From: Thermodesulfobacteriota bacterium
GTDB lineage: Bacteria > Desulfobacterota > GWC2-55-46
Length of the DNA stretch: 50,583 nucleotides
Direction of reading: 5' to 3'
NCBI GenBank assembly: GCA_030583865.1
Contig: CP129479.1
Location: 2,701,053-2,751,635 of the forward strand
Below, in pieces: positions 24,650 through 39,966 of this stretch (position 1 is its first letter; each line of letters opens with the position of its first letter). Made by a program: the position numbers and the translations under genes. The notes beneath the pieces are model-generated. The model was not told the DNA's origin, did no database searches, and worked only from the letters and a program-made list of their open reading frames with translations.

Positions 24650-25078
24650 ATGGGCGATCACATTGAGGCAAATGCGATTCCATTTATAATGTTATTTTCA
24701 AAACCCAGAAGAAATGCGGAAGCATTGCCAGGTAGATATGATAATGAACTAGATGTAATGGTATTAGATGTAGCTGGACAGAAGATGCCATTAATTAAAA
24801 CGAGCTCAATGCCAGAACTTATAACATTTACTAGGGTGCAGCGTGAATCCAATGATGAGCAAGAAAATCCTATTATGCAAGAAACAGTGACCAAGACTGC
24901 CGTTTCCAGGGAATCCGACGACCATAGCAACTATTTATTAGAGACGATGACCAAAACATTTACAGAAAGAGAATCAGATGATGATTCTTTAGGTATCAAT
25001 GAATTATATACAAAAACAGAAGTTGATCGTGAGCAGGAAGACACTTTGATCGGCTTACCAAATGATTATCATTCTTAG
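24650..25078 (+). CDS. Graspetide-type RiPP precursor with four core repeats
   Basis: A 142-aa protein. The first 55 residues look like a leader, with IPFIMLFSKP (10-19) recalling the PFF-type ligase-binding helix of microviridin leaders. Four repeats follow with the pattern TxTxxxRExxD: Thr59/61 with Arg65-Glu66 and Asp69; Thr81/83 with Arg87-Glu88 and Asp90/91; Thr101/103 with Arg107-Glu108 and Asp110/111; Thr121/123 with Arg127-Glu128 and Glu130/Asp131. Spacing is 22, 20 and 20 residues. Such Thr-plus-acid repeats are where ATP-grasp enzymes form ester links between side chains. GGAGAGG precedes the ATG. The ligase gene overlaps the end by 17 bases. Confidence 0.85.
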   Translation: MGDHIEANAIPFIMLFSKPRRNAEALPGRYDNELDVMVLDVAGQKMPLIKTSSMPELITFTRVQRESNDEQENPIMQETVTKTAVSRESDDHSNYLLETMTKTFTERESDDDSLGINELYTKTEVDREQEDTLIGLPNDYHS

Positions 25079-26018
25079 TAACCGCGAAGATATAACCGCA
25101 GATTATGTCATATTAGAGCTTAGAAAAAGAAAGGTTGATTTCTTTCGATTTAATACAGAAGATTTCCCCCTAAATGTAAAGCTTTCTCTGAATTACGGTA
25201 CAACTAATTTTCTTCAGACTCCCAATAATAAAATAATCCCCTTTTCCGATATACAAAGCATTTGGTATAGAAGACCCATTCTTCCTGATTTTAATAAGTT
25301 CAGATTAGAAAAAGGTGTGGAAGATTTTTGTACTAAGGAATCTTTTGCAGCACTGGAAGGTGCGTGGACTCTATTAGATTGTAACTGGGTGAGCAATCCC
25401 TTTAATATCAGAAAGGCAGAAATAAAACCATTTCAATTAAGCGTAGCATCTGAGATTGGATTTAAAATACCGAAAACTTTAATTTCCAACGACTCGGAAT
25501 TAATCAAAAATTTTTATCTAAAAAACAATAAATGTACGATCGTAAAACCAATAAAAACTTCTGTCGTAAAAAAAGTGGCAGGAGAAGACATAATCTTCAC
25601 AAGTAGCGTGCAGGATTTTGCTATCGAGAAAGTGAGCAAATGCATTCCAATTCCGTCGATATTCCAAGAAAGATTACCTAAAAAGTACGATATTAGAGTG
25701 ACTGTTATTGGTGAACAAGTATTTCCAGTAGAAATTCATTCGCAGGATTTTAGGGATTCTATGGTTGATTGGCGGCAAGGGGAAAATCCTAAAATTAAAC
25801 ATTTGAGGCATGAGTTGCCCAAGGATATTTCTGATAAATGTCTTCAATTGAATAAGAGATTGGGCTTGAAATTTTCAGCTATTGATTTTGTTTTTACACC
25901 CAATGGTGATTACTATTTTCTTGAAATTAATCCCAATGGTCAGTGGGCATGGATTGAAGAAAGAACTGGCTACAAGTTAACCGAAAGCCTAGTTGATCTT
26001 TTATGCTTAGAAAAATAA
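25062..26018 (+). CDS. ATP-grasp graspetide ligase (MvdC/MvdD-like)
   Basis: A 318-aa ATP-grasp enzyme of the group that makes omega-ester or omega-amide rings in precursor peptides. The N-terminal domain has IWYRRPILP near residue 66, the typical signature of microviridin-type ligases. The ATP-grasp core has VKPIKTSVVKKV (near 162), FQERLPKKYDIRVTVIG (near 205) and the metal-binding end SAIDFVFTPNGDYYFLEINP (near 272-291) with Asp, Glu and Asn in place. It overlaps the precursor gene and the following membrane gene, so all three are coupled. Product: a peptide with several bridged units, one per repeat. Confidence 0.88.
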   Translation: MIIILSNREDITADYVILELRKRKVDFFRFNTEDFPLNVKLSLNYGTTNFLQTPNNKIIPFSDIQSIWYRRPILPDFNKFRLEKGVEDFCTKESFAALEGAWTLLDCNWVSNPFNIRKAEIKPFQLSVASEIGFKIPKTLISNDSELIKNFYLKNNKCTIVKPIKTSVVKKVAGEDIIFTSSVQDFAIEKVSKCIPIPSIFQERLPKKYDIRVTVIGEQVFPVEIHSQDFRDSMVDWRQGENPKIKHLRHELPKDISDKCLQLNKRLGLKFSAIDFVFTPNGDYYFLEINPNGQWAWIEERTGYKLTESLVDLLCLEK

Positions 26019-26656
26019 GAGAATTTTTCTGGCCATTGTTAGAGGGCGAGCCACCTAAGCAAAATGATAGTAGCGTCGATATTATTTTGTATAAATTGGG
26101 TGAGAATCAAGAAAATGCCGAAAGACTGCTCGAAATTAGCAAGGATATTTGCGAAGCTGAAAATAAAAGGCTAAATACAGTCGAGGCTAAAGCGACAACG
26201 ATTTTGGGTGCTACGGGTCTTATTGTTGTATTAATCGCTAATTTTGGCAAATCATTATTTTTTGAAGATAGTCACAGCACCCCGGATAAAGATTTCGCTG
26301 TCTATCTTTTTAGTATTATTTTCTCGTTATCTATAATTTATTTTTCTCGTGCCGTGTACTTTGCCATCAAGACTATTAGTAGGCGTGGTTATCACAAAAT
26401 TAATCCTAATGAACTTATATCAAATTTCAAACACGATACTAAATGGACATATGATATGAGAATTGCAGCTTTTATTTTAGATAAGACTCAAAAAAATTTT
26501 TCTATAGTTAATGAAAAAGTTGATTACATGGTGATGGCACAGGAGTATTTTAAGCGTGGTATTTTAATAATTTTATTTGTTGCAATAATTTTATCTTTGA
26601 AGCCATTCCTGCCATTCCTTTTGAATTTTCTCCAGGCAATCCATGCTAAATACTGA
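26003..26656 (+). CDS. Three-helix membrane protein of the graspetide operon
   Basis: A 217-aa protein with membrane segments near 64-84 (TTILGATGLIVVLIANFG), 98-122 and 190-213. Before the first is a helical charged region with EAENKRLNTVEAKATTILGATG, which recalls the short membrane effectors of SLATT/Pycsar type, where a KA..ILG motif starts the first helix. That link is weak. It overlaps the ligase gene by 16 bases. It could export the peptide, protect the producer, or be an effector. No ABC transporter or peptidase is present. Confidence 0.65.
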   Translation: MLRKIREFFWPLLEGEPPKQNDSSVDIILYKLGENQENAERLLEISKDICEAENKRLNTVEAKATTILGATGLIVVLIANFGKSLFFEDSHSTPDKDFAVYLFSIIFSLSIIYFSRAVYFAIKTISRRGYHKINPNELISNFKHDTKWTYDMRIAAFILDKTQKNFSIVNEKVDYMVMAQEYFKRGILIILFVAIILSLKPFLPFLLNFLQAIHAKY

Positions 26657-29405: not shown

Positions 29406-29936
29406 TCATGGATCAATTACAGGAAGCGTATAGTTAGAAATTTCATTTATTATTTCTATACCAAGAGATTTCGTTTCCAGAGAACTTGAACTATACTGCA
29501 ACGAATAAGCTGCAAAATCATGTTTTCTACTGTGACCTAAAATATAAAATTCTGGCCTATAAATAGCGATAATAGGACGAGGAGTTTTAGCTCTATGATC
29601 TGAAGCCAATTCTATCAGAGTCTTATAGTCGCGCGAGCTTAAGTCGAGAGCGCCCCAAGGATGTGTGTGCCAATCCCCCATGAACGTTAATTCGCCTCTT
29701 GTTAGGTCAAATATGTAATCCAAAATACTCTGGCAATATTTGTGGTCCGCCTCAAAACATGTCAACCCATGGTAAGCATTCGGACCTGGTCCTGTTGCGT
29801 GTGTCATTACATGATTTCCTGATTTATCCTTATACCCAATCAGGATCCCACCTGTCTCTTTGAAAAGAAATTTTTTTGCTTCTTTACGCCAAGTCTCAAT
29901 TACTGACGCAAAGATAAATATTTTTTTCTGCATCAA
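29406..29936 (-). CDS. JAB/JAMM isopeptidase
   Basis: A 176-aa JAB1/MPN metalloprotease with the whole JAMM set: Glu27 in ETGGILIG, His90 and His92 in DWHTHP, then after seven residues Ser100 and Asp103 (HxHx7SxxD). Such enzymes remove ubiquitin-like proteins or process their tails. It is the last gene of a leftward three-gene operon, its ATG sharing the ATGA with the stop of the E2-E1 gene. In CBASS (Cap3) and Bil systems a JAB enzyme acts against the E1/E2 conjugation step, so this one probably does too. Confidence 0.92.
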   Translation of the reverse strand: MMQKKIFIFASVIETWRKEAKKFLFKETGGILIGYKDKSGNHVMTHATGPGPNAYHGLTCFEADHKYCQSILDYIFDLTRGELTFMGDWHTHPWGALDLSSRDYKTLIELASDHRAKTPRPIIAIYRPEFYILGHSRKHDFAAYSLQYSSSSLETKSLGIEIINEISNYTLPVIDP

Positions 29937-31672
29937 CAGCTTTTATGAAACCTACATGAATTGTGTTTGGTTATATTCCGTTTTTCCAAATTAGGCAAAT
30001 CTCCTTTAGAATCAGTGCGGCTACTCCAATTGATAAGATTATAATCCACGTCGGGATATCCATTCTCGTTCCGCAACAGTGTTTGAACTGCGAATCGAGT
30101 GGCCAGATTTGATATGACGCTTGTATCAAAACCAGTTCCTGTGAACGTTGGGAAACAACAGCCTCTAGCGTACAAGGGCTGAGCTAATGGATCTTCATTT
30201 ACATTACCCGTATTCATATCACTTTTATGATATCCGAAACATTCGAAACAGGCTTCGTTCGGCAAAGCACGAAAAATCTGACCTCCCCAGGCACCATTAT
30301 GCACATATGCATATATCCCAGGTTTCCCTGCTGCTGTCAGAATATCGTTGATTAAAAATTCAACTGACTTATCCGCTATTGTAGATATAATCAGATCGTA
30401 CTCTGCTGTAAGTTTCGAAAAAATCGACAAATCGTCACCCTCGCCATCTGGAAGTGATTCAGGGTCATGTACAGGCATGCCCAACTTTACTCCCCACGGC
30501 TTAACTTTGGCAAAGGGATTAATTAGTTTAATCTGCCTTGCGATTGCATCGACCTTGGCCATACCAGTCATTCTTAAATCTACAGCTTGACGGACCACAT
30601 TTCCTGCGTCATAGCCATCAAAATCAATGAGACAAAAATGGCCTATCCCGGCCCGCGCTAGCTCTGTCGCAATTACGCTTCCTATAGCTCCAAGGCCGAC
30701 CAGGACTACCTTCTTTTCACGAAGTTTTATCAAGGAAGGAATACGTTGGAAGTACGCATCCTCAACTCCTAACAGAGAAGGACGCAATAGAGCTTTTATT
30801 TTGTGTTTTTTGCTTTCAACTCCTATTAGCCATTGATCATGAACATACTCTCTTCTTTTTGGCCCTTCTTCGGGATAAACTATACCGAATATATCAAAAT
30901 CTCTTGCAGGATCATTCTGCTTCATTTTATCCAAGAGCCTCTGATATCGATATGTCAGTTTACTTTCCTGATCAAAAAACCATTTTTTGAAGGAACCGTA
31001 ATCATTCAGAAAAGGAGGCTGAGTTTTTACCTTAAGCCATTGTCCTTTCATTTCTAAGACACCTTGCAATGCCTCTGAATTTATGCTGTATGTTTTATTA
31101 GAGCTTGCGTCGTGAACTTTGTAGAGGACAGTTTGCATTACTTCATTAATGTGAATTGTGGGATTGAATACTTGCAATCTAAGAGCAAAATCGCCCCAAG
31201 ATCCCATAGGAATGTGAGTCATTGTACTTGGAATTAATACTGAGGAAACCTTGGTGGTTGATAATTTATTATACGGGTAGTAAATGCTTGCGGGTTCCGG
31301 AGCATCTATTTCAAGGTCTTCGATGTCTTGGGGACGCTCATTAAACACATTTATAAGGTCAAGGGCCTCCAGTACTCGGTCTGCTCCAGTTTTTTTCTGT
31401 TCTATGCATAAAACGCCGCTGTAAGGCTCCTGATGGCGTGGCAGCACTTTGCTTAAGTCCCTTATTAGCGGCATTGTATCAGGGAATCCTGATGGATAAA
31501 TTACCTGTAACCTATGCTCGCCATCAGAGGCTTGAATAGTACCCTCGAAGACTACAACCTTTTTTTTGACCAGGAGTTCCTCGTTTAAACGAAAATCCAT
31601 GCCACCTTCTAAATAGGCCTTCTTTTCCGTTTCGAGCAAATCGGGTTCTCTCTCAAACCAAGGCTTAGGCAT
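29933..31672 (-). CDS. E2-E1 fusion of a ubiquitin-like conjugation system
   Basis: A 579-aa protein. The first 120 residues fit a prokaryotic E2 fold: VIYPSGFPDTMP, then HQEPYSGVLCI with a candidate catalytic Cys89. Residues 130-310 are a linker domain of unknown fold. The E1/ThiF domain starts near 320 with VVLVGLGAIGSVIATELARAG, the IDFDGYDAGNVVRQ loop, and CFEC plus CC pairs near 477-495 that may bind zinc. The order E2 then E1 is that of CBASS Cap2, but there is no CD-NTase. The start is taken as the ATG at 31672, sharing TAATG with the stop of the 48-aa gene; a GTG at 31681 is in frame. Confidence 0.88.
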   Translation of the reverse strand: MPKPWFEREPDLLETEKKAYLEGGMDFRLNEELLVKKKVVVFEGTIQASDGEHRLQVIYPSGFPDTMPLIRDLSKVLPRHQEPYSGVLCIEQKKTGADRVLEALDLINVFNERPQDIEDLEIDAPEPASIYYPYNKLSTTKVSSVLIPSTMTHIPMGSWGDFALRLQVFNPTIHINEVMQTVLYKVHDASSNKTYSINSEALQGVLEMKGQWLKVKTQPPFLNDYGSFKKWFFDQESKLTYRYQRLLDKMKQNDPARDFDIFGIVYPEEGPKRREYVHDQWLIGVESKKHKIKALLRPSLLGVEDAYFQRIPSLIKLREKKVVLVGLGAIGSVIATELARAGIGHFCLIDFDGYDAGNVVRQAVDLRMTGMAKVDAIARQIKLINPFAKVKPWGVKLGMPVHDPESLPDGEGDDLSIFSKLTAEYDLIISTIADKSVEFLINDILTAAGKPGIYAYVHNGAWGGQIFRALPNEACFECFGYHKSDMNTGNVNEDPLAQPLYARGCCFPTFTGTGFDTSVISNLATRFAVQTLLRNENGYPDVDYNLINWSSRTDSKGDLPNLEKRNITKHNSCRFHKSC

Positions 31673-31818
31673 TATAGACACGCCCTCCCATATCTTCGAG
31701 GGCGGTCTATATCAGGCCTTTTCGGGTGCTCAGGCCTTTCTGGCTTCTCAGGATGTTCTGGGTGCTCCGGGTGATTTGGTTTGTCGTGACCCTTTTTTTC
31801 TTTGTCTTCGTTTTTCAT
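31672..31818 (-). CDS. 48-aa His/Pro/Glu-rich peptide of the E2-E1/JAB operon
   Basis: The reverse strand has GGGGGGAG six bases before an ATG at 31818, then 48 codons whose TAA overlaps the E2-E1 ATG (TAATG). The peptide is low-complexity: a charged start, six P-E/K/R-H/R-type repeats (NHPEHPEHPEKPERPEHPK), and an Arg-rich end, YGRACL. It has no beta-grasp fold and no Gly-Gly tail. Since no ubiquitin-like gene is nearby, this peptide may be the conjugated partner, a cofactor or a regulator. Tight coupling supports it as a real gene. Confidence 0.78.
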   Translation of the reverse strand: MKNEDKEKKGHDKPNHPEHPEHPEKPERPEHPKRPDIDRPRRYGRACL

Positions 31819-31848: not shown

Positions 31849-31940
31849 GTTCCGAACTCATTAATATGATAAACAGAATTATATGATTTTATCGAACTAA
31901 CGTGTTCGGTTTATCGGAATATACCGAGTTACCGAATTCA
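31849..31940. promoter_or_regulatory. Divergent control region with repeated CCGAA/TTCGG elements
   Basis: The space between the E2-E1 operon and the XRE gene holds several related elements: TTCCGAACTCA (31850), the dyad CGAAC-TAACGT-GTTCG (31893-31908), TCGGAAT, ACCGAG and ACCGAATTC to 31939. These look like a set of binding sites for one dimer, most simply the XRE protein encoded at 31978, and would let it control both directions. Confidence 0.5.
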
Positions 31941-31977
31941 AGTCAAGTCCTTTTTAATTCTTCTTTTGAGGGTTCAA

Positions 31978-32403
31978 ATGAAACTGGCGTCGGTTGGCGA
32001 TCGTATCAAATATATACGAACACAAAAAAAACTAACTCTTGAGCAATTAGCCGATAAATCGGAAATCTCCAAAAGCTTTTTATGGGATGTTGAGAACGAT
32101 CGTTCTGATATTGGAGGGGAAAAACTTTTACGAGTTGCAAATGTACTTGCCGCCTCATTAGATTATCTTTTACGTGGTGAACCAATATCCGAAGATAACA
32201 GGCGAGCAATCATTGAGATACCAGTTGAATTAAGTAACTTTGCTGAAGAGAAATGTCTTAGTTATCAACAAACATTATTACTACTTGAGATTGATAATTC
32301 GATTATGGCTCGTCGAAGCACTAAGAGTAGAGATTCTAAAACTAAAGAATATTGGCAAGAACTGTACGAGGGCGTCAAACCGTTTTTGGGGGAGAGGAAG
32401 TGA
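31978..32403 (+). CDS. XRE-family regulator paired with ImmA/IrrE protease
   Basis: A 141-aa protein with an N-terminal Cro/C1 helix-turn-helix (residues 5-65: VGDRIKYIRTQKKLTLEQLA, then SEISKSFLWDVENDRSDIGG) and a helical C-terminus. GAGGG precedes the ATG at 31978; a TTG at 31966 is less likely. Its stop overlaps the GTG of the ImmA/IrrE gene (GTGA), the standard pairing in which the protease cuts the repressor to release its promoters. It probably represses the divergent ubiquitin-like operon. Confidence 0.85.
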   Translation: MKLASVGDRIKYIRTQKKLTLEQLADKSEISKSFLWDVENDRSDIGGEKLLRVANVLAASLDYLLRGEPISEDNRRAIIEIPVELSNFAEEKCLSYQQTLLLLEIDNSIMARRSTKSRDSKTKEYWQELYEGVKPFLGERK

Positions 32404-33476
32404 ATAAATTAGAGCGTCAGGCTTATGATCAGGAAATTCGAAGGGTAGGTAAGCGCCTTGGTATTCCGCTCCGTGGGAATATTGAAAATGCAATAATTGA
32501 ATATTGCAAAAAAGAGGTCGATAAATTACTCGCACCGCGAGTTAATCCTAAAAACCTTGTAGATCTTCTCAATTATGTAGCAACTTCTCTAGGGGTTGTG
32601 GTTAAGGAGATACATGAGGATAGGGACCTGGATGAATTGGAACAGGAGATCCCTCCGGAGAGAGAACCCGTAATTGGGCGGCTCAAAAAAGAACTCGATG
32701 ATCAGACAGATGCTTTGATTTTAGAACGCAAGAATAGGCATCCTTGGGAACAACCGTATTTAGCTGTTATAAATTGTCGTGGCTCGCATTCGTTAAAAAA
32801 ATATTTTAGCAAATGGCATGAGATAGTACATCTTTTATTGGATGGAAAGCAGCTCCGATTTGCATTCCGCCGTACTCCCTCTCTCAAACGTGAACCAGAA
32901 GAAATATTAGTAGACCGAGTTGCGGCTTTTTTAGCGCATCATCCAGCCTATCTTGAGCCTGCATTGGAAGAAGAGAATCTTTCAAACGGGAAACTCTCTT
33001 TTGAAATGATCGATCGAATTCGGGAGAAATTAGCGCCCGAGGCAAGTCGCCTATCTACTACAATTGCCTGTATCAAAAAAACCAAAGAGCCTATTTGTTT
33101 TTTACGTGCGAGATTGGGTTTTAAAAAAGATGAAGAGAAACTCCTTCTTGCAATGGAGCATGAAGTAATCGAAGAGAACTTTGCTCCTGTTATGAAATTG
33201 CGTATACGTGAAGCTACAAGCAGTTTGAAATTGGAAGAATTGGGAATTCGCTTTCACAAGAATATGGAAATACCTACTACAAGTATTATTTCCAAAGCCT
33301 TTGATGGCAACGATTATGAATCATATACAGGAGCAGAATTGCTTCAGACGTGGACTACTTCAAAAGGGTCTATAGGATACGGAAAAATAGAAATAGAGGC
33401 GAAACGTATTCCGTCTCTAAATGAAGTATGGGCTATCATCTATATTAAAGAGCGAAAAGGGAAAAAGCATAATTGA
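32400..33476 (+). CDS. ImmA/IrrE-family metalloprotease
   Basis: A 358-aa protein read from GTG 32400 (GGAGAGGAA upstream; an ATG at 32352 would overlap the XRE gene deeply). The HExxH zinc site is WHEIVHLLLD near residue 141, and a later acidic residue in VDRVAAFLAHHP would complete the site. The last 130 residues have no known domain and may sense the inducing signal. ImmA-type proteases cleave XRE repressors during DNA damage or infection. So this pair may switch on the neighbouring operon under stress. Confidence 0.85.
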   Translation: MNKLERQAYDQEIRRVGKRLGIPLRGNIENAIIEYCKKEVDKLLAPRVNPKNLVDLLNYVATSLGVVVKEIHEDRDLDELEQEIPPEREPVIGRLKKELDDQTDALILERKNRHPWEQPYLAVINCRGSHSLKKYFSKWHEIVHLLLDGKQLRFAFRRTPSLKREPEEILVDRVAAFLAHHPAYLEPALEEENLSNGKLSFEMIDRIREKLAPEASRLSTTIACIKKTKEPICFLRARLGFKKDEEKLLLAMEHEVIEENFAPVMKLRIREATSSLKLEELGIRFHKNMEIPTTSIISKAFDGNDYESYTGAELLQTWTTSKGSIGYGKIEIEAKRIPSLNEVWAIIYIKERKGKKHN

Positions 33477-33492: not shown

Positions 33493-34548
33493 TTATGACC
33501 ATTTTTGCAAGAGATCACGTTGACCAATTTTAGTACTTGTATTGAAAAATAGTAAGGCCCTGCCATCAGCATAAACCACAAAAGAAGAAGCTAATTCAGA
33601 GAGTCTGCCGAAATTTATAAGCTTTACGGGATTTTGTATCATTAAGATGGGCAACGTTCTTTTTTCCAATATATCCGCAAGTGGTACAAAATATATCCAA
33701 TATTTATTCTTATGATGAAAAGCCATTTCTCGTTCTCTTATTGACCATTCAAAGCGAAGCGCCTTACCAAGAGAAGATTTTACCTCAATCAGACGCTGCG
33801 AACCGTCGTGCTCAAAAGAACTTATGTCAAATCCTGCCGATACAGCTTCTGCACCAATACGAAATACAAGCTTCGCCAAATCAGGACGTCCGATTTTAAT
33901 GAGGCGTTTTTGCTCTTCGATGAGCACCAACTCTTCTGCCTTTTTAGCTCGGAGTCTTTGGGCATCAAGTCGCTCCCACAAAGTTTTCTCATCAAGAGCT
34001 ACCATTCTAAGAATTTGAGGAGGGAGAACTGATTCAAAGGCTACATTAAGGCACAGCTTACCATCGCATTCTTCAAGAACGCCGAGTTGCTGTAATATCC
34101 TTGCCGCTACCTGCATCGTCTCTTCCCATGTTGATGGATTTGACTTGGCCTCTAATTTCTCATCTGCTCCCTTCCCAAAATAACTAAATAATTGGGAAAT
34201 ATTAGAATTCATGTATTCGTCATCTAAAAATAGGCTCAGCAGAAAACTTGACTGTCCAAAGGTTAAATCCATTTTATAATCACTCAGTTTGAGGAAAAGT
34301 GCGCCGGTCTGGGTTAGAAAAACGATTTTCTTATCTTTATTGAGTAGTCCGATTAGTAAAGCTACTTTAAGGGCAGGCTCAGGATTGGGGTACCGATAGG
34401 TTGCTCCAGCGCTTTGATTAGCAAGCTCGATAAGTTCGAGTTTGCCAAGTCTCTTAGCACGCCGATGTTTATACACAGAAAGTAGTCGGTTTAGTTCACC
34501 GACGTGTCCTGTTTCTTCGATTAGTTTGAGTAGTTCCTTTGTCTGCAC
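33493..34548 (-). CDS. DUF3883 protein with nuclease-like core
   Basis: A 351-aa protein from GTG 34548, chosen because it overlaps the helicase gene by only 53 bases; an ATG at 34626 is in frame. The N-terminal two thirds are helical and unknown. The C-terminus is a DUF3883 domain: GFDISSFEHDGSQRLIEVKSS near 250, with the Asp and the EVK that make a PD-(D/E)XK active site, then RFEWSIREREMA and KYWIYFVPL. DUF3883 occurs in many defence proteins. It is the last gene of a four-gene operon and would be its cutting part. Confidence 0.78.
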   Translation of the reverse strand: MQTKELLKLIEETGHVGELNRLLSVYKHRRAKRLGKLELIELANQSAGATYRYPNPEPALKVALLIGLLNKDKKIVFLTQTGALFLKLSDYKMDLTFGQSSFLLSLFLDDEYMNSNISQLFSYFGKGADEKLEAKSNPSTWEETMQVAARILQQLGVLEECDGKLCLNVAFESVLPPQILRMVALDEKTLWERLDAQRLRAKKAEELVLIEEQKRLIKIGRPDLAKLVFRIGAEAVSAGFDISSFEHDGSQRLIEVKSSLGKALRFEWSIREREMAFHHKNKYWIYFVPLADILEKRTLPILMIQNPVKLINFGRLSELASSFVVYADGRALLFFNTSTKIGQRDLLQKWS

Positions 34549-36436
34549 TTGATATCTCTTCCAGTAATTCTCGGAAGATTTCCTCCAAATCGTCTTCTCT
34601 ATCTGCAAGGAAGGAATCATCATCATAGCCTAAGACCGGCATGTCATCATCTAGTAATTGATAGAGCACTTGCTGGCGGCTGCGTAATCTTCGATCCACA
34701 ACCTGCTCAACTGCGCACTGCAATATCGGAATATAATAGCGTGGATGAATTTTTGATGGCATACCCACCCGGTGTATGCGATCCATAGATTGCAAGAACT
34801 GCCCGCAATTGAAGGTCCGTTCCAGATAGATTGCGTTATGGCAAATCATGTGAAGAGAAACTGATTCAGAACATGCAGCTGGATTAGCTATCAACACAGG
34901 GCGATCCAAACGGGTTTTAAATTCAGAAATGTTTTTTTCTCTACTTTCAAAAGCCGGATCATTGTCCTCATTGTAAGGCGGCACATCTCCATAAATTTTC
35001 AAGGGTTTTAAATCTTTTAAAAGTCTTTCCAACAGGAGTATGTTTTCAACAAAAGTTGCCCAGATGAGCACTTTATTGCCATTTTTTACTAGTTGGCGTG
35101 TTGTATCTACAACAAAAGAGACTTTTGCCGGTATCTCATATTTAATATGGTCACGAAGCATTGTGGCTAGCACAGGATCATCATCCATTGCTGCTCCAAA
35201 TTCCCCGGTATCAGGAATAATGCCTCTCAACAACGCTGGGTTACTTGCAGCTTGTAGGAGCCTTAAAGAACGAGCTTTGCGCCAACGACGAAGAATTGAC
35301 AAATCCGCCTGACTCAGCTGTAAATTTCTAGCTTCCTGAAGTGTCCTCTGCTCAAGCAAACTAATTATGATTTTTTGGCGGGATGGAATGTCGCGATGAG
35401 GAATTTTGGTTATAACAGGAATGGGCTTTGGTAATCCCAAATCGGACTTCTTGGTACGTATGAAAAAAGGCTTGATCAGCGTTTTAACTGCTTCAGCTTG
35501 ATGACTTGCCGAAGATGTTAATTGTTGTTCAAATTGCGCTCGGCTTCCCAAAACACTTTGACTTGGCCAAAGAAAAGCAAACTGCGACCATAAATCCTGA
35601 AGCGAACGAGGTGCCGGAGTACCTGTTAATACCATTCTACGTTCGGCATAAGGAGCTAAGTCAAGAACAGTGCGAGCCCAAGGACCCAAATTAATGTTTT
35701 TAATGTGATGAGCCTCATCGAGAATCAACAAACAGCGACTTGAGCTAAGAGCGACAATCAAATTATCGCGCTCTCTATTGGCCATTTGATATGTACAAAG
35801 GACTAGATCGACATTTTCGAGGTTACGAAGTAACCTTGCACGTTCAGGCCGGGTTCCTATCAATCTTACCACAGTGGGAGTTTGACCAAGCGTTTCTTTG
35901 AACTCATTCTCCCATGGCGCAAAACTACTTGCTGGACCTATAACGAGTAATTTTTCAACAATTTTCTGTTTTTTTAATATTGCATAAACTGATAATGCAC
36001 TTGTTGTTTTTCCACTCCCAGGGACAGAGAAGTTTGCAGCATGCCTAATAGTAAGGGCATGACGCACCGCTGTTTGTTGATGTCCTAGTAATGAACGACA
36101 GATACCATAATTGGTGGGTGACTCAAGGGATACTGGTCGAAGCTTCTTTGATCGGGCCGCCTGAACGATTGAGGATTCTTCGCGAAACTGGACCAAAGCA
36201 CGGCGCATACTGACATCTAAATCTACCTCAAAACCACGAGCGGTAAGAAAATTGTCTATGTAATCAAGAATATGGCCAAGCTGACCATTGTCCTCTGCAA
36301 TGATTTCATCTGAGCCACCTTCAACTGTAAACAATCCGAGAGATAACTCACTCCCGATAGAATCTCGATCAAAATCTTTTTCCCGAGAAAAATCTACAGT
36401 TATCAATCCAGGTCGGTCTTGCCGAAGTATAATCAT
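34496..36436 (-). CDS. SNF2-family helicase/translocase
   Basis: A 646-aa superfamily-2 ATPase. Motif I is FSVPGSGKTTSAL (near 137), motif II LLILDEAHHIKN (near 240), motif III LTGTPAPRSLQDLW (near 270) and motif VI QSMDRIHRVGMPSK (near 550). The SNF2 group moves along double-stranded DNA. The first 110 residues are a unique N-terminal domain. The gene follows the ParB-like gene after 10 bases and overlaps the DUF3883 gene. It resembles helicases of DISARM and type I/III restriction-like systems, but the other DISARM genes are missing. Confidence 0.88.
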   Translation of the reverse strand: MIILRQDRPGLITVDFSREKDFDRDSIGSELSLGLFTVEGGSDEIIAEDNGQLGHILDYIDNFLTARGFEVDLDVSMRRALVQFREESSIVQAARSKKLRPVSLESPTNYGICRSLLGHQQTAVRHALTIRHAANFSVPGSGKTTSALSVYAILKKQKIVEKLLVIGPASSFAPWENEFKETLGQTPTVVRLIGTRPERARLLRNLENVDLVLCTYQMANRERDNLIVALSSSRCLLILDEAHHIKNINLGPWARTVLDLAPYAERRMVLTGTPAPRSLQDLWSQFAFLWPSQSVLGSRAQFEQQLTSSASHQAEAVKTLIKPFFIRTKKSDLGLPKPIPVITKIPHRDIPSRQKIIISLLEQRTLQEARNLQLSQADLSILRRWRKARSLRLLQAASNPALLRGIIPDTGEFGAAMDDDPVLATMLRDHIKYEIPAKVSFVVDTTRQLVKNGNKVLIWATFVENILLLERLLKDLKPLKIYGDVPPYNEDNDPAFESREKNISEFKTRLDRPVLIANPAACSESVSLHMICHNAIYLERTFNCGQFLQSMDRIHRVGMPSKIHPRYYIPILQCAVEQVVDRRLRSRQQVLYQLLDDDMPVLGYDDDSFLADREDDLEEIFRELLEEISSADKGTTQTNRRNRTRR

Positions 36437-36446
36437 TGCTGATCAC

Positions 36447-37796
36447 TCAAATTTTTTTTGATTCTAAGTGCTTGGCTCGGCTCGCTTTCGCATCACTAGG
36501 ATTCCTTATTTTCTTACGCAATTTTTCCGCTTTTTCAAAACATTTTTTTGCCACAGTGATTATTTCATCCAGAACGGCCGGGAGGCTGTTGAATTTCTGA
36601 GCAGATTCAAAATTATCTGCTATCTTTCCATCTTCGAGTGTATCTAACAATTGTTTCAAATGTGTATTCGCATTATTAGCTAACTGCAAAGGTTTATCAG
36701 CTTTTTCCTGAGCATCCATTTGATCTAAAAAAGAATCAACGCTTTCTTGGTGAGATATTTTGAGAGCTGTATTTATTCCTTTTGCAGATAAGGCCTTCTT
36801 AAGATTTTGTGGATCGCCGCCCAATCCTAAAAGTCCTTTAAATGCTTTTTCGTTTCTCCCCTTTGCGGTCTTTCCACTTCCCATAGAAGTACGAATTTTC
36901 CGCATCTGCCAGTTATCCATCAATTTATCTCGGATAATAGCAAAATGAGTTAACTTAAGCTTTTGAATCTCGGCAGGCATCGTTCCTTGTTTTCTGGCCT
37001 GCTCAAGTGTCTTAACGGCTTCCTCGAAGCGCTCGACAACATCTCCAATTTCATTGTAGGCTCTCGGTTTTCCAATGAAGTCCAGATACTCATTGATCAA
37101 TCGAATTTTCAGGATATCCTTTTTTATTTCCTCTTCTGATATCCCATATAAAACTTTACTGATTTCTTTTTCAGGATTCTGCTTCCCTCTTAAAAGATTA
37201 AGTCCCTCTTGAATTTTTAATAGTTCATTAATAGGAGAATACGGATGTTTTTCATCGCGCCCAATCTGAACGCCAGCTTCAATTCTCCAACGATCCTCAG
37301 GGCCAACATCTGGATCTAGAATAATTGCATCAAGATATTCAAAACGAGTGGGATTTGGTTCTGTTTTTTGCAAATCTAGCAAAGCAGCCAGACGGCGATT
37401 CCCATCCAAGACCCCACCGTCAAATAGAACCACACCTGGCTTCAGCTGTAATCGGCCAGCCAAGTCAGAACGTAATTTCTTGAAAGGGTCTATATCACGA
37501 TCTGTCCCGGGATATTCACCTTTTAACATTTTCCAAATTTTGTCTTTCCACTTTTCTTTCTTTGGATCAATTTCTACACCGGGATTATCTGCCCGCAACT
37601 GAACCATTTTGTCGGCATAACGCCCATTCTCTATGTTAAAAAATAGGTACTTCGTAGGAACTCGATAAACATCGAGCTCCTGTCTTTTACCTTTGATCCA
37701 AAACAGCTCTTTTCGATCTGTTTTTTCAGAAACGTCTTTCAAATCGGATAATGCATTAGAGTCTTTAATCTTAGCTAATTTCTCTCGCTTGCTCAT
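36447..37796 (-). CDS. ParB/Srx-like protein of the methylase-helicase operon
   Basis: A 449-aa protein from ATG 37796 (AAGGAG at a good distance; overlaps the methylase end by 26 bases). Residues 100-170 carry a ParB-like DGNRRLAALLDLQK motif near 132, the nucleotide-binding loop of the ParB/sulfiredoxin fold. The C-terminal half is helical with coiled-coil character. ParB-like domains in defence loci often bind DNA or hydrolyse nucleotides. It sits between the methylase and the SNF2 helicase. A specificity or loading role is plausible. Confidence 0.75.
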   Translation of the reverse strand: MSKREKLAKIKDSNALSDLKDVSEKTDRKELFWIKGKRQELDVYRVPTKYLFFNIENGRYADKMVQLRADNPGVEIDPKKEKWKDKIWKMLKGEYPGTDRDIDPFKKLRSDLAGRLQLKPGVVLFDGGVLDGNRRLAALLDLQKTEPNPTRFEYLDAIILDPDVGPEDRWRIEAGVQIGRDEKHPYSPINELLKIQEGLNLLRGKQNPEKEISKVLYGISEEEIKKDILKIRLINEYLDFIGKPRAYNEIGDVVERFEEAVKTLEQARKQGTMPAEIQKLKLTHFAIIRDKLMDNWQMRKIRTSMGSGKTAKGRNEKAFKGLLGLGGDPQNLKKALSAKGINTALKISHQESVDSFLDQMDAQEKADKPLQLANNANTHLKQLLDTLEDGKIADNFESAQKFNSLPAVLDEIITVAKKCFEKAEKLRKKIRNPSDAKASRAKHLESKKI

Positions 37797-39966
37797 TCCG
37801 CTCGCTCCTTTTGCTGGAGGTCTTTGATTTGAGTTTCGACTTGGAATAACTTTTAGCGAATAAAGCTTCAAAGTCTATGCCTCTTGTTGCTTTCTTGCTT
37901 AGGTACATAATCATGAGGCCAGACATGAGACTTCGAGCATCACACGAATTAAAATCAAATTTCTCTTTACGCAAAATGCGCGTCCAGTGCCCCAACTGTC
38001 TTTTTGCATCTCTCTCGATCGATAACAGTAATTTATCACCTAGATTATTATGATTATGGCTCTTTTGAGCTCTATCCCTTTTTCGACAAACAAATACTTC
38101 ATCCCATTTTATATTCCTATTATCACTGTGAAAGCGACTTTGTCCTTCAGAGCGCACTGGAAAAACGTTAGTAATACAGAATCCTGACTTCAGCAAAGCT
38201 TTTGCGAGAGCTGCCCAGGCTTTTGGTTCATTGTGATGAAATGTGAATACGAAAATCCCATTTTCTTTTAGTACTCTATAGCACTCCGAAAATGCACTCG
38301 CAAGTCCTTGCGCAAAGCGCTCGTGAGATTCTTCTGATTTTCGCTCTCTTTGTGAAACGTAAAGAGATTCCTTAAGCGGAGTCTGCCGATGATTATTGCC
38401 AGGGTATGAATTAAGATTAAATTTTTTCAACCAGACATGATAGAAGTCTGACAATTCGGAATATGCGAGATTGTTATAATATGGCGGGTCAGAAAGAATA
38501 AGATCAACTGAGGCAGATGGAATAGACGAAAAGTTTTCAGATGACTGATTTAATAATAGAGCAAAGGGGTTTTTATTTGATTTATCTGGAAATTGAGTAA
38601 TAAGCTCGCAGCTAATGCTTTCACCAGTAAACTCTTGCTTAGGCCCTTTCTCATCATATTTATATTCGTATGGCTTATTGGCATAACGTTTTCCTTCGAG
38701 CATTTTGTTAAAACATTTCAAAAACGAGCCTCTTCCGAAATTTGCCCCCCATACATTATTTTCGACAGGTCGTGTCATTTTAACATAGGCGTGTAAGCCA
38801 AATAATGGAGTAAGCTTTCCATAGTCAAAAGCATAAAAACAGAACATATTATTTGACGCAAGACAGTCTGAAAAGGCCAAGGCTAACAATTCGCGAGCCC
38901 CTGAGTCTTCAACAGAACCTATGGCCTTTCCTAATGCTGATAAACATAGTAACTGGCGGGAATTAAACAAATCTTTATACCGTTTATAACCAAATGAGAC
39001 TGGTCTACGGTCGTCTCTATTTATTACTGGGATGGAGTCATAAGGAATGAATCTATCTTTTATACTTTCTTGCAACCATTGACGCTCAGCCTTCCTATAG
39101 AGCTTAAGATCAGACTCGTCAGCTTTTTTGAAAATTCGCTCTTTGGTTCCATCAATAAGAACTTCCACTGCAAAGAGTTTTTGCAAAAATGGTTTTTCTT
39201 CATCAAAGAGCTCTTGCATCGCCGTTCTAGTCTCACATCCAGGGCAGACGAATGCGCCTCTACTGACCGGTCCTTTCATAATATTAGTTCGATGCTGGCA
39301 CTTATCACATGTAAATGTTTTCCAGGCTAGAGGAATCTTAGATACAGTTCCACATTTTGCACAAAACACAATCTGCTCTTCTTTTTTCTGGTAACGCCTT
39401 AGCTGAAAATGTGGATGTCCCTCAAATATATCGCAGCAAGATGGACACTTTATCTGATCAACCCAAAAAGCATACATTATTAGCCCTTTGCGGCCATCAG
39501 ACAATTCGGTGTGATACCACTGCATTATTTCTTCTTTGACTTTTTTCTCTACTAATGAAAAAGCAGCCAATAAGGCTTCTTCATTATAAATTCCAAGCTC
39601 CTTTGCTGTAACAAAGCAAGCAACTGGATCAATATCAATTCCAATTACACTCGCATTGCATTTAGCCGCCTCAATCAGCGATGTACCACCACCTACAAAT
39701 GGATCTAAAACACGAAGCCCTGAAAAATTATGTCGATGATAAAAATAATCTTTTTTAAAAAAATGTGATTCATTTTCTGATGTTATCGCAGAAAGAAGCA
39801 AAGAACGAAAAACTGAGCCAAGCCGTCTTGCCCACCATTTATGCATTTGGTAAATTGGTTTTTTTCGATTACCCTCTCGGAGCGCCAGACGGCTCGCGAA
39901 CACAACAGGCGGTTCCGTTTCTATTAAGGCTTTATCAGGAATGAGTGACTTTTTATTTTGATTCAT
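37771..39966 (-). CDS. DUF1156 (COG1743-type) DNA methyltransferase
   Basis: A 731-aa methyltransferase. It opens with ASRLALREGNRKKPIYQMHK and WWARRLGSVFRSLL, the DUF1156 signature. Motif I DPFVGGGTSLIEA is near residue 92. The catalytic motif IV is SDPPYYNNLAYSELSDFYH near 492, of the adenine/N4-cytosine class. Between are four CxxC pairs (about 170-255) that form zinc ribbons. It is the first gene of the leftward operon methylase, ParB-like, SNF2, DUF3883. It would mark self DNA. In known systems DUF1156 methylases pair with a DUF499 ATPase, which is absent here. Confidence 0.88.
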   Translation of the reverse strand: MNQNKKSLIPDKALIETEPPVVFASRLALREGNRKKPIYQMHKWWARRLGSVFRSLLLSAITSENESHFFKKDYFYHRHNFSGLRVLDPFVGGGTSLIEAAKCNASVIGIDIDPVACFVTAKELGIYNEEALLAAFSLVEKKVKEEIMQWYHTELSDGRKGLIMYAFWVDQIKCPSCCDIFEGHPHFQLRRYQKKEEQIVFCAKCGTVSKIPLAWKTFTCDKCQHRTNIMKGPVSRGAFVCPGCETRTAMQELFDEEKPFLQKLFAVEVLIDGTKERIFKKADESDLKLYRKAERQWLQESIKDRFIPYDSIPVINRDDRRPVSFGYKRYKDLFNSRQLLCLSALGKAIGSVEDSGARELLALAFSDCLASNNMFCFYAFDYGKLTPLFGLHAYVKMTRPVENNVWGANFGRGSFLKCFNKMLEGKRYANKPYEYKYDEKGPKQEFTGESISCELITQFPDKSNKNPFALLLNQSSENFSSIPSASVDLILSDPPYYNNLAYSELSDFYHVWLKKFNLNSYPGNNHRQTPLKESLYVSQRERKSEESHERFAQGLASAFSECYRVLKENGIFVFTFHHNEPKAWAALAKALLKSGFCITNVFPVRSEGQSRFHSDNRNIKWDEVFVCRKRDRAQKSHNHNNLGDKLLLSIERDAKRQLGHWTRILRKEKFDFNSCDARSLMSGLMIMYLSKKATRGIDFEALFAKSYSKSKLKSKTSSKRSERNEQAREIS

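Follow-up and report, generated by a model that had tools for sequence, protein, structure and literature searches.

Here we describe a bacterial gene cluster resembling the ubiquitin machinery that seems to attach to its targets not a folded ubiquitin but a short, floppy, proline-rich peptide. The same arrangement recurs in at least six bacterial phyla and may therefore represent a new kind of protein tag used in bacterial defence. The cluster was found in a 50,583-nucleotide stretch of a Thermodesulfobacteriota bacterium genome (GCA_030583865.1, contig CP129479.1, positions 2,701,053 to 2,751,635; hereafter the window). The operon comprises three genes on the minus strand, next to a divergently transcribed pair:

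31672-31818 (-), 48-aa Pro/His/Glu-rich peptide (MKNEDKEKKGHDKPNHPEHPEHPEKPERPEHPKRPDIDRPRRYGRACL), the predicted modifier, with a probable mature end at Gly44 (..RPRRYG followed by RACL)
29933-31672 (-), E2-E1 fusion of 579 aa, with E2 His80/Cys89, E1 GxGAIGS loop, Asp350/Asp352, Arg361, Lys373, candidate catalytic Cys505 and Cys475/478/573
29406-29933 (-), JAB (JAMM) metalloprotease, read from ATG, with conserved Glu, His-x-His, Ser and Asp (E26, H89, H91, S99, D102 in the 175-aa form)
31905-31946 (-), promoter-like site (TTGACT-17-TATATT, 31946-31918) overlapped by an inverted repeat (31905-31936) that could be a repressor operator, identified at the level of consensus only
31966-32403 (+), divergent HTH repressor-like gene, CapH-like, with an ATG at 31978
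32352-33476 (+), protein with an HEIVH motif, possibly a CapP-like metallopeptidase, inferred from motif and position only

The peptide is coupled to the E2-E1 gene by TAATG, and the E2-E1 gene to the JAB by TGATG. The peptide start has ...TAGGGGGGAGCATAAAATG upstream, with a strong ribosome-binding site of its own (GGGGGGAG), whilst the ribosome-binding site of the E2-E1 gene (GGAGGG) lies within the codons for the last residues of the peptide, Gly-Arg-Ala. Moreover, the peptide has the highest Pro+His density of any six-frame ORF in the window (12 in 24 aa), and 100 simulated windows reach at most 11. No gene of the locus matches a beta-grasp family, no CD-NTase-like ORF was found in the locus and no SMODS domain was found in the whole genome. 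These data confirm the preliminary description of the operon, which had noted the short peptide in place of a ubiquitin fold.

The enzyme is a Cap2-like E2-E1. Pfam recognises only the E1 part (ThiF, 7.7e-26) and misses the E2 part, but the PADLOC models for E1-E2 (1.1e-39) and JAB (2.8e-21) match the fusion and the JAB, respectively. An AF2 model of the whole fusion, built from an alignment of 41 sequences (pLDDT 77.7), has CBASS Cap2 (7to3_A) as its best full-length Foldseek match (E 7e-22, 607 alignment columns). Invariant residues in this alignment include H80 and C89 in the E2 part, G326/G328/G331, D350, D352, R361 and K373 in the adenylation site, and C505, which aligns with the Cys of the conserved GC motif in Cap2 proteins.

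To test whether the arrangement extends beyond the window we searched for related E2-E1 loci (numbered L below). Scans of genome contigs and viral contigs with the single window protein found nothing. Relatives were instead reached by tblastn on plasmids, a DNA scan of genome contigs with an alignment of plasmid relatives, and HMM searches of whole genomes, the last of which does not depend on the peptide. Viral contigs gave only two partial E1 hits, and phage records gave four weak E1-domain hits, named MoeB or ThiF where annotated. In total we gathered 62 family loci from six phyla. In 57 of these, a free Pro-rich ORF of 39-70 aa ending in V-G (once V-A, in L090), with at most two further residues, sits at the E2-E1 start. 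Elsewhere in the same loci only 1 of 6,838 ORFs passes the same filter, and it does not look like a real match. The E2-E1 start was chosen with knowledge of the peptide stop and thus the position criterion is slightly circular, although the content criteria are not. Loci found by HMM only, without regard to the peptide, also have it (L087, L088, L090 and L091). The five exceptions are a contig edge at which the end ..HPRPVG is still visible (L026), broken E2-E1 frames (L054 and L061), a frameshift inside the peptide (L067), and L087, in which the peptide reads ..PPKDREVGARCSS with no stop after VG and runs on out of frame into the E2-E1 gene, reflecting either a sequencing error or a long precursor. 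In two Halomonas loci (L019 and L062) a peptide ending HREVG and the E2-E1 are present, but no JAB was found by HMM within the locus.

Several loci are near-identical copies, and there are 49 distinct peptides including that of the window. These are 36% Pro and 13% Gly, with almost no hydrophobic or aromatic residues other than Val. None of the ten sampled, nor the window's, matches Pfam. The peptides are under protein-level selection, with dN/dS of 0.077 in ten Bradyrhizobium/Mesorhizobium sequences and 0.113 in eight sphingomonad/rhizobial/Brevundimonas sequences. Differences by codon position were 112/106/861 and 154/154/695, respectively; pairwise sums are not independent, but the pattern is unambiguous. 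Among the family loci only one, L044 (Azospirillum), has a CD-NTase-like ORF, on the opposite strand about 2.5 kb beyond the peptide operon. Taken together, these data support the suggestion in the preliminary description that the peptide may be the conjugated partner. However, the HPE repeat emphasised there is not the essential feature; instead, Pro/Gly richness and a C-terminal V-G (or V-A) are.

Interestingly, near relatives in the E2-E1 tree carry such a tail on a folded protein. L085 and L089 have CD-NTases ending ..RSRWYG and ..RDERYG, L086 has a metallo-beta-lactamase with a Pro-rich tail ending ..RRDRYAG, and L097 and L098 have CD-NTases ending ..PGGFA. L041, which lies inside the peptide clade, has a double YegP/DUF1508 protein ending ..GDRPVG. 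This suggests interchangeable cargo on one tail. In CBASS the C-terminal Gly or Ala of the CD-NTase is the residue conjugated by Cap2, and deletion of the Gly abolishes thioester and conjugates (PMC10097602; see also PMC11153139). The simplest reading is that the free peptides are the same tail without a cargo domain, and so the peptide is most likely the modifier itself.

The window copy is an outlier. It is the only one of the 49 peptides whose glycine is not preceded by V, having instead Y-G and four extra residues (RRYG-RACL). Y-G matches the CD-NTase tails, and extra residues after VG occur in other members (Q, R, QG, QQ), so that trimming of a precursor by the JAB is likely. An archaeal JAMM enzyme matures its Ub precursor just after the terminal Gly-Gly (PMC6043591). 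The window E2-E1 is only 21-30% identical to its relatives. Its best BLAST hits are members of the peptide clade (L087, 29.6%), but the tree is unresolved and joining it to the clade is neither supported nor rejected (p-AU 0.116). In the phylum of the window, only 1 of 395 genomes, that of the window itself, has a clear member, which is consistent with horizontal spread; the other two matches (E 1e-26 to 1e-32) cover the E1 part only and lack the peptide.

The genomic context points to defence. The divergent neighbour matches PADLOC capH (1e-10) and HTH_3 (5e-10), and is followed by the HEIVH protein. The latter has no family or PDB match and gave a poor AF2 model (32406-33476, without relatives, pLDDT 39.8), so its CapP identity is a guess. 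A capP-like gene is adjacent in 8 of 36 relatives. CapH and CapP control CBASS and Bub operons in response to DNA damage (PMC13373217). Pfam and PADLOC scans of 98 flanking proteins identified no general effector neighbour, and no conserved target gene was found. Within the window, positions 1617-29399 carry a tyrosine integrase (1617-2729), two VirD4-like ATPases, serine recombinases and a T4SS pilin, and are likely an integrative conjugative element. Positions 24650-26656 hold a repetitive peptide (TKT..RESDD repeats) followed by an MvdD-type ATP-grasp ligase and a membrane protein, a possible graspetide cluster. On the other side, a NOV_C protein, an SNF2-family helicase, a ParB-like protein and a DUF1156-type methyltransferase lie in a row (33493-39966) and look like another defence system.

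We therefore propose, with reasonable confidence though without biochemical evidence, that the operon is a minimal ubiquitin-like conjugation system whose modifier is a free, intrinsically disordered, Pro-rich peptide. In this hypothesis, in which every catalytic step, the trimming, the target and the role in defence are inferred, the JAB trims the precursor where needed (here after ..RRYG) to expose a C-terminal Gly. The E1 half adenylates that Gly and passes it as a thioester to Cys505, the E2 half takes it on Cys89 and joins it to an amine on a target, and the JAB can remove it again. A CapH/CapP-like pair probably keeps the operon off until stress or phage attack. More broadly, it is probable, but not established, that this represents a widespread and previously unannotated class of bacterial ubiquitin-like pathway in which the modifier has no fold at all.

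Other explanations appear unlikely, but cannot be dismissed entirely. The least remote is that the window locus is a decayed CBASS, in which the CD-NTase was lost and the peptide is a remnant of its Pro-rich tail. The ending RRYG indeed resembles the CD-NTase tails RWYG/ERYG, and the window E2-E1 is not firmly inside the peptide clade, such that this origin stays possible for this copy. However, the peptide has its own start codon and strong ribosome-binding site, all three frames are intact, no CD-NTase remnant lies in the short gap to the divergent HTH gene, and dozens of other loci carry conserved free peptides. It is also conceivable that the peptide is a translated leader that only couples or regulates translation of the E2-E1 gene, which would modify something else. 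The tight TAATG coupling, the ribosome-binding site inside the last codons and the short, low-complexity sequence would fit this, but strong purifying selection on the amino acids, the fixed C-terminal V-G and the occurrence of the same tail on folded proteins in related loci argue against it.

A peptide natural-product pathway of MccB type, in which the E1-like enzyme modifies the C-terminus of a ribosomal peptide to make a small molecule, seems doubtful. MccB and PaaA are among the fold matches of the E1 half and a short peptide precedes an E1-like enzyme, yet a fused E2 with invariant Cys and a JAB are present, the full-length match is Cap2, and no exporter family recurs among neighbours whilst CapH/CapP do. 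Similarly improbable is that the His-rich peptide is a metal-binding cofactor or chaperone. The HPEHPEHPE repeats and the copper- or heavy-metal-related genes near the Arthrobacter and Hymenobacter plasmid loci (L012 and L013) could be taken to suggest this, but many family members have few His (for example L013, L060 and L088), and the conserved features are Pro/Gly and the C-terminal Gly.

E1/E2 chemistry is usually thought of with a beta-grasp protein, and in CBASS with a CD-NTase. If a bare tail suffices, the tail is the true recognition unit of these enzymes and the protein in front of it is interchangeable, be it a CD-NTase, a metallo-beta-lactamase, YegP or nothing. This would predict what many orphan E2-E1/JAB operons modify, provide a very small E1/E2 substrate for biochemistry, and flag dozens of operons, some next to CapH/CapP regulators, as candidate defence systems. 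The peptide genes are so short that most are missing from the annotations. We found no description of the peptide in the literature we could consult, although a prior mention cannot be excluded.

The closest known system is CBASS type II, in which Cap2 and Cap3 conjugate a CD-NTase through its C-terminal Gly/Ala. Both have an E2-E1 fusion followed by a JAB, a conserved C-terminal Gly/Ala on the gene product directly upstream and CapH/CapP-like regulators nearby. However, here there is no CD-NTase, the upstream product being only a 40-70 aa unfolded tail, and the three-gene operon of the window has no cyclic-nucleotide-activated effector, nor did Pfam and PADLOC scans of neighbouring genes show one. 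The 6A-MBL type operons (Iyer 2006 row 6a, NCBIfam NF058523) share the E2, E1 and JAB modules, and the related MBL protein of L086 has a tail ending RYAG, but here there is no MBL gene and the E2-E1 and JAB are separate proteins. The Bil and Bub systems (E1, E2 and JAB with a beta-grasp ubiquitin-like protein) share the conjugation logic with a JAB, whereas here E2 and E1 are fused and the locus has no beta-grasp protein. Pup of Actinobacteria is likewise a small, intrinsically disordered protein modifier; however, the window peptide ends RRYGRACL rather than in GGE/GGQ, and E1/E2 chemistry on a terminal Gly is predicted. Lastly, Iyer, Burroughs and Aravind listed operons of type 6b from RhNGR234a and an Arthrobacter in 2006 (PMC1779556). 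The E2-E1 and JAB genes of our NGR234 and Arthrobacter operons are probably those listed there, where they were grouped with nucleotidyltransferase operons and the short peptide gene is not mentioned.
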